38,638 nucleotides of DNA from an uncultured Clostridium sp. (GTDB taxonomy: Bacteria; Bacillota; Clostridia; TANB77; CAG-508). The stretch lies in NCBI GenBank assembly GCA_947388675.1, contig CANDRW010000017.1:1-38638 (forward strand), written 5' to 3'. A program made the translations under genes and the position numbers. Numbering within the stretch: position 1 is the stretch's first letter; each line of letters begins with the position of its first letter. Positions 16,898-22,011 of the stretch are shown here, piece by piece. The notes beneath the pieces are model-generated. The model was not told the DNA's origin. It was given only the letters and a program-made list of their open reading frames with translations, and did no database searches.

Positions 16898-16918
16898 AAA
16901 GTGAAGGAGTTAAATTTT

Positions 16919-18253
16919 ATGGCAAATAATAAAAACCAAAATATTAGATGTTCCTTTTGTGGAAAGTCCCAAGAAGCAGTAAATCGTATTATTGCAGGAC
17001 CAGGAGTATATATTTGTGATGAATGTATCAAGGTTTGTACAAATATTATAGATGATGATGTTTACCAAGATGCAGAAATTACTTATACTACTACAGGACA
17101 GGAAAAATTGCCAACACCAGCTGAGATAAAAGACATTTTAGATTCGTATGTCATTGGTCAAGAAGAAGCTAAAAAGACACTATCTGTTGCAGTATATAAC
17201 CATTACAAAAGAATAAATCATGAAAATGATACAGAAGATGATGTAGAATTACAAAAAAGTAATGTCTTGTTATTAGGTCCAACTGGTTGTGGTAAAACCT
17301 TATTAGCACAAACCTTGGCTAGAATTTTGCAAGTACCATTTGCGATAGCAGATGCTACTACCTTAACAGAGGCTGGATATGTAGGTGAAGATGTTGAAAA
17401 TATCTTACTAAAACTAATCCAAGCTGCTGACTATGATGTAGAAAAAGCACAAAAAGGTATTATCTACATTGATGAAATTGATAAGATTTCTAGAAAATCA
17501 GAAAATCCATCTATTACAAGAGATGTTAGCGGGGAAGGTGTACAACAAGCCTTATTAAAGATTGTAGAAGGAACTGTTGCATCTGTTCCACCACAAGGAG
17601 GACGTAAACACCCACATCAAGAGTTTATTCAAATAGATACTTCTAATATTCTATTTATCTGTGGTGGTGCATTTGAAGGACTAGAAAAAATTGTAAAAGA
17701 TAGAATGGGTAAAAAGTCAATTGGGTTTGGTGCTCAAATTGAAAGTAACAAAGATATTGATAAATATAAAGTGTTTGAAGAATTATTACCACAAGACTTA
17801 TTAAAGTTTGGTTTAATTCCAGAGTTCGTAGGAAGATTACCAATCATTGCAACCTTACGAGAATTAGATAAAGATGCTTTAGTTGATATTGTCACAAAAC
17901 CAAAAAATGCTTTGGTAAAACAATATCAAAAACTATTCAAATTGGATAATGTAGAATTAGAATTTGAAAAAGAGGCATTAGATAAGATTGTAGATAAAGC
18001 AATAGAAAGAAAAACGGGAGCAAGAGGTCTTCGTTCTATTATAGAGGAAATTATGAGGGATGTCATGTTTGAAATTCCTTCTAATCCTAAAATAGAAAAA
18101 TGTATGATTACTGGAGATACTGTGGAAAATGGCGAGGCTCCAAAGATTATTATAAATAATAATCGCGAGATACCAGTCAAAAAGCCACAAGCACAAGCAC
18201 CAGCAAAAACAAAAAGAGCGAAGACAACTAAGAGAACAGGAACAAGTGCATAA
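16919..18253 (+). CDS. clpX: ATP-dependent Clp protease ATP-binding subunit
   Basis: CSFCGKSQ...CDECI zinc-binding domain, GPTGCGKT Walker A, IDEIDKI Walker B, KKSIGFGA. Confidence 0.97.
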
Positions 18254-18288: not shown

Positions 18289-18317
18289 TTGAAAAAATGA
18301 CTAAAAAATAGTATAAT
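18289..18317 (+). promoter_or_regulatory. Sigma70-type promoter of candidate sRNA
   Basis: TTGAAA-N17-TATAAT. Confidence 0.75.
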
Positions 18318-18323
18318 GAATAT

Positions 18324-18478
18324 ACTGAAAGAAAACAAAAATGAGAGAGTTCCTGCTTTAGTGGAAGATGAAAAATGAGTGAGCTCATACTTTAGTTGAG
18401 GATATAAATGAGAGAGTTCCTGCTTTAGTGGAAAATTTAAAATTAATAGGGGGTTCAAAAAGAACCCTCTATTTTTTT
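18324..18478 (+). ncRNA. Candidate small RNA with three tandem hairpin repeats
   Basis: Strong promoter, three ~33-34-nt repeats each with a 4-bp stem and a TRCTTTAGT loop, then a rho-independent terminator; no ORF. Confidence 0.6.
18446..18478 (+). terminator. Rho-independent terminator of candidate sRNA
   Basis: ATAGGGGGTTC-AAAAA-GAACCCTCTATTTTTTT. Confidence 0.85.
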
Positions 18479-18481
18479 GAG

Positions 18482-18577
18482 TTCTAGGAAAGTGCTGTAT
18501 AGCACTTGACGTAGAAATCAATTATTGCGAATGTTACAAAATCTTAAAAGCTTTGCTTTTTAGAATTTGTTAATTCG
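18482..18577 (+). repeat. Dispersed structured repeat, copy 1
   Basis: TTCTAGGAAAGTGCTGTATAGCACTTGACGTAGAA...TTATTGCGAATGTTACAAA...TTTAGAATTTGTTAATTCG; matched in reverse at 37936-38037. Confidence 0.75.
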
Positions 18578-18614
18578 TTTTTTGTATAAAAAAATAAAAA
18601 AAGGAGGAGAAAAC

Positions 18615-18845
18615 TTGGAAATAAAAAATGGAAAATTGGTAGTATATGATGTAGATAATAATTATAGAAACTATTTAAGAAAAGAAGCAATAGTAAATGA
18701 AATTTTAGAGAAGACAGAAAAAGTATTAAAAATTCTAGAAGATAAAACACATCATGATTATCGATTTTTTAAAGGAATTTGTTGTGATTATCAATTATTA
18801 GAACAGAAATGTCAAGAATACATAAAAATCCATTTAACTACTTGA
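18615..18845 (+). CDS. Small hypothetical protein (TTG start)
   Basis: AAGGAGGAG RBS 5 nt before TTG at 18615; MEIKNGKLVVYDVDNNYRNYLRKEAIVNEILEKTEK... Confidence 0.55.
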   Translation: MEIKNGKLVVYDVDNNYRNYLRKEAIVNEILEKTEKVLKILEDKTHHDYRFFKGICCDYQLLEQKCQEYIKIHLTT

Positions 18846-18879: not shown

Positions 18880-19138
18880 AGGAAAAAGCGATAATAAAGG
18901 ACAACACAATAAAGTAAAAAGCCTAACAGAGAGCCAAATAACTTGCTGAGAGTTTGGTAGGAAAATAGCTTATTGTTATCACCTTTTGGCTATTGAATTG
19001 AAATAATAGTAAATTCAATCGTAATTCTTGCGTTAAAAGAAAATGAGTGAAAAGAATATTTATTCTTTTAAGTTAGGTGGTACCACGGAAGTTTGAAGCC
19101 ATTTCGTCCTAAATAATAAGACGAAATGGCTTTCTTTA
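18880..19138 (+). promoter_or_regulatory. T-box riboswitch (Ile) controlling ileS
   Basis: T-box motif TTAGGTGGTACCACGG at ~19073-19088. Candidate specifier ATC in TTATCACC (18978-18980). Terminator GCCATTTCGTC/GACGAAATGGC (19098-19130). Upstream of ileS. Confidence 0.92.
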
Positions 19139-19140
19139 AG

Positions 19141-19176
19141 TTCTAGGAAAATGCTTTAGTATTTGATGTAGAACTT
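19141..19176 (+). repeat. Dispersed structured repeat, partial copy 2
   Basis: TTCTAGGAAAATGCTTTAGTATTTGATGTAGAA matches the 5' half of copy 1. Confidence 0.65.
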
Positions 19177-19242: not shown

Positions 19243-22011
19243 ATGTCAGAAGAAAAGAAAGACTATGGACAAACATTAAATTTACCAAACACAGAGTTTC
19301 CAATGAGAGGAAATTTACCAGAAAAAGAGCCCAAAATTAAAGAAGCAGTTTTAGATAATGGCTTATATGAAAAAATGTTAAAAAAGAATGAAGGAAAAAA
19401 ATCATATGTATTACATGATGGACCTCCATATGCGAATGGAGAAATTCACATGGGGCATGCTTTAAATAAAGTATTAAAAGATACTATAGTACGTTTTAAA
19501 AACTTACAAGGATATTATACACCATATGTACCAGGATATGATACACATGGACTTCCAACAGAGAAAAAAGCAATTCAAAAATTAGGTATTAAACGTGAAG
19601 AAATGAGCATTTCTAAGTTTAGAGATATTTGCCATGAATTTGCTTTAGAATATGTTGGAAAACAAACAGAAGGCTTCCAAAGATTAGGTGTACTTGGAGA
19701 CTGGAAACACCCATACATTACATTAGAGCCAGAATTTGAAGCAAGACAAATTGGTGTATTTGCAGATATGTACCAAAAAGGATATATTTATAAAGGGTTA
19801 AAACCTGTATATTGGTGTACAGACTGTGAAACAGCACTAGCAGAAGCTGAAATTGAATATAAAGATGTAGATAACGTATCTATCTATGTAAAATTTCCAG
19901 TAGTAGAAGGAAAAGGTATCTTAGATAATGACATGAAAATTGTAATCTGGACAACAACACCTTGGACATTACCAGGAAATACTGGTATTACTGTTGGTGG
20001 AGAATTTGAATATAGTGTGATTGACACAGGAGCAGAAAAGCTAGTGATGGCAACATCAGAGGTAGCAAGAGTTATGGAAGTAGCAGGTATAACAGATTAC
20101 AAAACTATCAAGACAATGCAAGGTGCAGAATTAGAAGGAATTTTATGTCAGCATCCATTTGCAAAAAGGACTTCTAAAGTTGTTATCGGAAGTGAGGATA
20201 CAGTTAACGTAGAACTTGGAACAGGTACTGGTGCAGTTCATACAGCACCTAGTTATGGTAAAGAGGACTATTTATGTGGTCTGAAAAATGGACTAGAAAT
20301 TATTGTATGTGTTGACGGGAAAGGATATCAAACAGAAAAAGCTGGACAATTTGCAGGTTTATCTTGTGAAGAGTCTAACAAAGTTATCACGAACTGGTTA
20401 CAAGACAATGGATATTTATTGGCAACAGAAAAAATCAGCCACTCTTATCCACATTGCTGGAGATGTAAAAATCCAATCATCATTAGAGCAACAGACCAAT
20501 GGTTTGCATCAGTTGACGGATTTAGAAAAGAAACGCTAGATGCCATCAAGACTATTAAATGGACACCAAGTTGGGGAGAAGAAAGAATTGCTAGCATGGT
20601 AAAAGATAGAAATGACTGGTGTATTTCTAGACAACGTACTTGGGGTGTGCCAATTCCAATCTTCTATTGTAAAGAATGTGGCGAAGAATATGCTACAAAA
20701 GAAGGATTTGAGAAAATCAAGCAAATCTTTAGAGAAAAAGGTTCAAATGCTTGGTATGATTTAGATGAAAAAGATTTAATGATAGAAGGTTCAACTTGCC
20801 CTCATTGTGGTAGTCATGAATTCAAGAAAGAAACAGACATTATGGATGTATGGTTTGACTCTGGTTCTTCACATCAAGCGGTACTTGTAGAAAGAGGAAT
20901 TGACTATCCAGCAGACCTATACTTAGAAGGACATGACCAATATAGAGGATGGTTCCAATCATCACTATTAACATCAGTTGCAACACAAGGTGTGGCTCCA
21001 TATAAAGGAATTTTAACACATGGTTGGGTTATTGATGAAGATGGAAGAAAAATGTCTAAGTCATTAGGAAATGGAATTAGCCCACAAGATATTATTAAAG
21101 AATATGGTGCAGATATTTTAAGACTTTGGGTATTATCTTCTGACTTTAAAACAGATATTAGTATTTCTAGGGATATCTTAAAACAAATTAGTGAGGCATA
21201 TAGAAAGATTAGAAACACTGCAAGATACATTTTAGGAAATATTGCAGATTTTGATCCAGAAAAGCAAGTTAATTATAGTGATATGCTAGAGATTGATAAA
21301 TGGGCATTATTAAAATTATATCAATTAGTAAAGAATTGTACACAGAATTACGAAGATTTCAATTTCCATATGGTATATCATGATATCAACCAATTTTGTG
21401 TATCAGATATGAGTAACTTCTATTTAGATATTATTAAAGATAGGTTATATACCTCAAAAGTAGATTCAGTAGAAAGAAAATCAGCACAAACTGCTATGTA
21501 CATTATTTTAGATAGCTTAGTAAAAATGTTAGCACCAATGATTTGCTATACAACTGAAGAAATTTGGAGTTATATGCCATATAAAAAAGACGAAAATGTA
21601 GAAAGTGTTATGCTTAATTACTGGCCAGAAGTAAATAGCGAATATGAAAATCATGAATTAGAAGAAAAATGGAACCATATTTTAGAATTAAAAGAAATAG
21701 TAGCAAAAGAGCTAGAAGTAGCAAGAAGCGAAAAAGTAATTGGTCATTCGCTAAATGCAAAAGTTACAATTTTAGCAGATGAAAAAGAATATGAGTTCTT
21801 AAAAGAAAACCAAGAGCAATTAGAAACAGTATTTATTGTGTCTAATTTACAAATTGAGCAAAAAACAGCAGAACAAACAGAAAAATTAGTAGTTAAAGTA
21901 GAAGTAGCAGAAGGAGAAAAATGTGAAAGATGTTGGAAATATTCTACAACAGTAGGTGAAGATAAAGAAAATCCAACTATTTGTCATAGATGTAGCAAAG
22001 CAATTCATTAA
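19243..22011 (+). CDS. ileS: Isoleucyl-tRNA synthetase
   Basis: DGPPYANGEIHMGHALNKVLKD (HIGH), DEDGRKMSKSLGN (KMSKS), C-terminal CERCWKY...CHRC. Confidence 0.98.
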   Translation: MSEEKKDYGQTLNLPNTEFPMRGNLPEKEPKIKEAVLDNGLYEKMLKKNEGKKSYVLHDGPPYANGEIHMGHALNKVLKDTIVRFKNLQGYYTPYVPGYDTHGLPTEKKAIQKLGIKREEMSISKFRDICHEFALEYVGKQTEGFQRLGVLGDWKHPYITLEPEFEARQIGVFADMYQKGYIYKGLKPVYWCTDCETALAEAEIEYKDVDNVSIYVKFPVVEGKGILDNDMKIVIWTTTPWTLPGNTGITVGGEFEYSVIDTGAEKLVMATSEVARVMEVAGITDYKTIKTMQGAELEGILCQHPFAKRTSKVVIGSEDTVNVELGTGTGAVHTAPSYGKEDYLCGLKNGLEIIVCVDGKGYQTEKAGQFAGLSCEESNKVITNWLQDNGYLLATEKISHSYPHCWRCKNPIIIRATDQWFASVDGFRKETLDAIKTIKWTPSWGEERIASMVKDRNDWCISRQRTWGVPIPIFYCKECGEEYATKEGFEKIKQIFREKGSNAWYDLDEKDLMIEGSTCPHCGSHEFKKETDIMDVWFDSGSSHQAVLVERGIDYPADLYLEGHDQYRGWFQSSLLTSVATQGVAPYKGILTHGWVIDEDGRKMSKSLGNGISPQDIIKEYGADILRLWVLSSDFKTDISISRDILKQISEAYRKIRNTARYILGNIADFDPEKQVNYSDMLEIDKWALLKLYQLVKNCTQNYEDFNFHMVYHDINQFCVSDMSNFYLDIIKDRLYTSKVDSVERKSAQTAMYIILDSLVKMLAPMICYTTEEIWSYMPYKKDENVESVMLNYWPEVNSEYENHELEEKWNHILELKEIVAKELEVARSEKVIGHSLNAKVTILADEKEYEFLKENQEQLETVFIVSNLQIEQKTAEQTEKLVVKVEVAEGEKCERCWKYSTTVGEDKENPTICHRCSKAIH

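Follow-up and report, generated by a model that had tools for sequence, protein, structure and literature searches.

Between clpX and a class I tRNA synthetase gene in an uncultured Clostridium sp. lies a short array of tandem repeats with the layout of a small RNA gene, which raises the question of whether it represents a new regulatory RNA or something already known. We examined the array within the 38,638-nt stretch of DNA that carries it (hereafter the window) and compared it with genomes of the same bacterial family. The array is a decayed member of an already known kind, an ordinary defence module, and not a new regulatory RNA: judging by sequence comparison, it is very probably a ToxI-type antitoxin RNA of a ToxIN/AbiQ type III module, orphaned by an in-frame deletion in its toxin gene.

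Anatomy of the repeat array

The preliminary description had placed a promoter, three repeats of 33-34 nt and a strong terminator at 18289-18478, and all were present (Table 1). Tandem Repeats Finder returned the array with a period of 34, 2.9 copies, 78% matches and a score of 138, which ranked first among 50 rows for the window (runner-up 85), and the terminator hairpin comprised 12 pairs (0.1 expected in shuffles). The stems likewise read as first proposed, UUCC/GGAA in units 1 and 3 versus CUCA/UGAG in unit 2, with both sides differing in two of the four pairs. The array matched no Rfam covariance model above threshold; weak matches to sraA, FopS and TD-2 all fell short of it and were put down to chance. 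We also rejected a role for the array as cis-leader to the gene that follows: the T-box there is a leader in its own right, ~400 nt past the array's terminator.

Table 1. Features of the array and its surroundings in the window
Feature	Position	Strand	Evidence or remark
clpX, gene preceding the array	16901-18253		
Putative antitoxin promoter: -35 TTGAAA, 17-nt spacer, -10 TATAAT, within AGTATAATGAATATACT	18289..18317	+	Consensus score 11/12
Putative antitoxin repeat unit 1	18338..18370	+	51.3 bits, E 3.8e-12, relatives-only covariance model
Putative antitoxin repeat unit 2, with CUCA/UGAG as its variant stem	18372..18404	+	40.2 bits, E 4.3e-9, relatives-only covariance model
Putative antitoxin repeat unit 3	18405..18437	+	47.6 bits, E 4.1e-11, relatives-only covariance model
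Intrinsic terminator separating putative antitoxin from toxin gene	18445..18478	+	Hairpin 18445-18473 and T tract
Shine-Dalgarno AAAGGAGG of putative toxin relic	18600..18607	+	Sequence; DNA alignment with G123
Putative ToxN relic, 76 aa, TTG start	18615..18845	+	PF13958 and AbiQ profiles; alignment with full-length toxins
TATTTAAGAAA at deletion joint	18672..18682	+	DNA comparison with G123 homologue
T-box leader	18882-19114		92.5 bits, just below Rfam gathering score 93
Class I tRNA synthetase, IleRS-type zinc finger	19243-22011		After T-box leader

Related arrays in the bacterial family

Used as a query against relatives, the 190-nt stretch matched mainly to the promoter. Downstream of those promoters we repeatedly found a small hairpin, 2-4 tandem repeats of ~35-45 nt, a terminator and an open reading frame of ~160-176 aa, and the reading frames that were tested were ToxN (PF13958, E 1e-26 to 1e-41). 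The promoter context of the window array also precedes type III arrays in relatives, where a terminator-like hairpin stands at the equivalent place in the order array, terminator, toxin. One contig (G182:C36) held the window's own repeat type, AAAATGAGAGAGGTCCTGCTTTAGTGGACGATT, in three units, with 1 and 3 alike and 2 a variant, and a full-length ToxN gene came directly after this array.

When 393 genomes of the bacterial family were searched with the G182 toxin, twelve close toxin homologues emerged (E 1e-112 to 8e-41), one of which (G379) had a broken frame. The window repeat type, in 1-4 units, was situated immediately upstream of the toxin in all twelve, and in G244, G164, G200, G233, G220 and G098 some units showed no difference from window units 1 and 3 over GAGAGTTCCTGCTTTAGTGGAA. 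By the search used, a ToxN-like stretch was present in 129 of the 393 sampled genomes. A covariance model built from relatives only, leaving out sequences of the window and of a sister genome (G029), picked exactly the three window units, with the next match at 13.6 bits (E 0.077). The same model found no further arrays of the window type in the window's own genome; its best match elsewhere there (C81, 24.7 bits) falls within a coding gene, and we attribute it to chance.

The array had initially been put forward as a novel sRNA, with a CsrA-like sponge binding at the GGA 3' of each loop as one option. Identical loops repeated between a promoter and a terminator of their own would suit an sRNA that regulates in trans, or a protein sponge, without any toxin-antitoxin link, but ToxN-family genes directly follow the array in 12 of 12 relatives examined of the toxin subfamily, a toxN relic lies next to the window array, and the supposed binding site is stem sequence. 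We therefore give such an RNA very little credence. GGA is not a conserved motif, because it is part of the 3' stem strand and changes along with the stem among relatives (e.g. GUGAACG, GUAGACG). What survives of the original proposal is a small non-coding RNA gene with repeated structured units, of a protein-titrating class; its novelty does not, since the array is of ToxI type, and the partner of that array type, going by the relatives, is not CsrA but the downstream ToxN endoribonuclease.

A promoter block of the form TTGACA-N17-TAGTATAATNAATATACTA, near-palindromic around the -10, was seen at L003, L006, L041 and other loci in relatives. This block is not exclusive to type III arrays: across the bacterial family it is also found ahead of a small number of other genes, among them one for a RelB-like antitoxin (identified by eye), and it is possibly a shared operator.

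Proposed pseudoknot layout of the repeat units

We fitted 19 distinct units to the pseudoknot layout of ToxI, with S2 corresponding to the hairpin described previously and S1 formed by the GAG just after the A-rich linker and a CUU in the loop. In unit 1, S2 pairs 18350-18353 with 18363-18366, and S1 pairs 18343-18345 with 18356-18358. Across S1 and S2, 99.2% of cells were standard pairs; five pairs, 14 cells, changed on both sides, which 0 of 500 shuffles matched, and sliding the partner by 1-3 columns lowered pairing to 50-74%. Units from relatives only showed the same pairing behaviour as the full set. By these controls, the compensatory stem change first noticed within the window is genuine and holds across relatives too. 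The covariation signal lies mostly in S2, while S1 (98% paired) comprises three pairs including one G-U and has a single compensatory change (A-U to G-C, G182 unit 2). We discarded a possible fourth pair in S1 (columns 14-23) as not general, since 13 of 19 sequences leave it unpaired.

Two U residues flanking the loop were invariant across the compared units. Conserved U residues of ToxI form a non-canonical U-U pair inside a U:U:G triplet (PMC8860590), and we infer that those flanking the loop in the array correspond to them. The repeat unit fits an H-type pseudoknot of the ToxI kind, into which it could fold. The three separate hairpins originally drawn are supported by comparison with relatives and not by energy: in the minimum free energy fold of the full transcript, units 1 and 3 pair with each other, and the folding energy is only modestly better than that of shuffles (z -2.0).

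Each of the three window units contains an ATG with a TAG in frame, as would be needed if each were a translated mini-ORF and the array encoded short peptides (MREFLL, MSELIL, MREFLL). The ATG is, however, missing from unit 2 of the G182 array, loops of the G123 units have one base fewer, putting the TAG out of register, and sequence changes track stem pairing instead; the probability of a peptide-coding array is negligible.

Among solved structures, the best match to the toxin subfamily was ToxN in PDB 4ATO (1.4e-17), which we take to be the Bacillus thuringiensis protein, and AbiQ of Lactococcus (4GLK) was also among the closest. ToxI of B. thuringiensis consists of 34 nt x 2.9 repeats (PMC5086642), equal to the window array in repeat length and number and set in the same order of array, terminator and toxin; unlike that system, the window toxin gene is without its middle, and sequence similarity to the toxin subfamily is distant. 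The antiQ repeats are 35 nt x 2.8 (PMC5086642). The subfamily toxin matched the PADLOC AbiQ profile at 3e-26 and the relic at 7.6e-7, though both are sequence-divergent from Lactococcus AbiQ and the relic is confined to profile positions 98-159. ToxIN of Pectobacterium and E. coli has a two-stem H-type pseudoknot, loop-flanking U residues and A-rich linkers cut by ToxN (PMC8860590), and the pseudoknot layout, flanking U residues and A-rich linkers are common to the window array; ToxI_Pa differs in having 36-nt repeats x 5.5, and S1 of ToxI_Ec has four canonical pairs where the window S1 has three with a G-U.

CptIN (NCBIfam NF047359) is type III too, but has a different toxin subfamily and longer repeats than the window array. 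A CptIN is the second type III system of the window genome (G000:C1:17768-18154, L169; NF047359 1.1e-43), with its own two-unit array of ~45-nt repeats and a terminator upstream. Since specificity for the cognate toxin has been reported for type III antitoxins (PMC5086642), we would not expect this system to draw on the window RNA.

The probable toxin relic, its locus and the proposed orphan RNA

The 76-aa open reading frame joins, in frame, ~23 N-terminal and ~50 C-terminal ToxN residues, and ~90 central residues are absent. It matched PF13958 over profile positions 103-159 (6e-5; 23.7 bits, just under the curated cut-off of 25) and was 68% identical over aligned positions to the toxin of G123, its nearest full-length homologue. 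Alignment with full-length toxins placed the FTSK segment of the subfamily within the lost part; FTSK aligns with the ToxN active-site Thr-Ser-Lys/Arg (alignment to 4ATO), and the active-site residues of ToxN_Pa are Thr52/Ser53/Lys55 (PMC5086642). Because the active-site segment is gone from the 76-aa frame, the window holds a putative antitoxin array and a relic, not a working pair.

In G123, one copy of the 11-mer TATTTAAGAAA stands at each edge of the part missing here, the two copies being 270 nt apart, and in the window toxin region the 11-mer occurs once, at the joint. A deletion between two 11-bp direct repeats would explain the in-frame loss of ~90 codons, as read from one 94-contig assembly. 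The kept frame and the intact Shine-Dalgarno might instead point to a functional shortened protein under RNA regulation, but 270 nt is divisible by three, so joining in frame needs no selection. The shortened product would also be without FTSK, the segment aligning with the ToxN active site (residues per PMC5086642), and close homologues in the searched sample were full length or otherwise broken, none being of the short form. We consider a functional short protein highly unlikely and regard the frame as a relic.

In the sister genome G029 (ClpX 96.6% identical), the same locus right after the clpX stop holds one repeat and a terminator, the array promoter is gone, and the same T-box and synthetase follow. 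By all appearances, the locus is decaying in the window/G029 lineage. In the other genus members examined, clpX was not seen next to this synthetase. A candidate DinD/antirepressor-like gene (read by eye) was observed in the toxin's place at L002 (G029:C73, ~1640-2100).

The window also contains two copies (18481-18516 and 19140-19173) of a dispersed intergenic element, TCTAGGAAA-hairpin-TTGAYGTAGAA, with ten further copies in the genome (e.g. G000:C12:49458-49491 and C13:10095-10125). The pattern had 12 exact matches versus 0 for a reversed-pattern control. Its flanks are fixed and its inner hairpin varies (GTGC/GCAC, TTAC/GTAA, TTAAGTAT/ATACTTAA), and it often lies just past a terminator or the end of a gene. 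Neither window copy had a significant Rfam match; the element may be a structured one, of mobile or RNA type.

In an intact module, the repeat RNA would be made from one promoter, and the terminator would pass only part of transcription on to toxN. By analogy with studied ToxIN systems, the ToxN endoribonuclease would cleave the precursor at the A-rich linkers that separate units, and each unit, as an H-type pseudoknot, would bind and block ToxN. The ~90-codon in-frame deletion in the window genome would have taken the active-site segment out of the toxin gene, leaving the RNA as an orphan antitoxin without its cognate enzyme. Most likely, the orphan RNA is still transcribed but partnerless. 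It is unlikely, going by the sequences, that it serves as a solitary antidote against ToxN-type toxins of mobile elements or phage defence, or has been redeployed onto another protein. Selection for the array as an anti-addiction or counter-toxin RNA against ToxN-type toxins of incoming elements or phages seems similarly doubtful. The promoter, three units and terminator look intact though the toxin is without its active-site segment, the unit 2 stem is preserved by compensatory change, and there are phages that evade ToxIN through acquired ToxI-like repeats (PMC5086642). Recent toxin loss would, however, equally account for the intactness, the G029 locus is down to one unit without the array promoter, and the array was not found in the phage or plasmid records searched (no match in the former; one 49-nt match, judged irrelevant, in the latter).

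Read as an orphaned ToxI-type antitoxin, an apparent new sRNA becomes a recognisable module. Rfam models miss arrays beside full-length toxins too, not just that of the window, and other such arrays have therefore probably been catalogued as unknown sRNAs. Type III antitoxin arrays can outlive their toxin gene and then resemble free-standing regulatory RNAs, and the recurring order of promoter, array, terminator and ToxN makes such arrays easy to find in this bacterial family.
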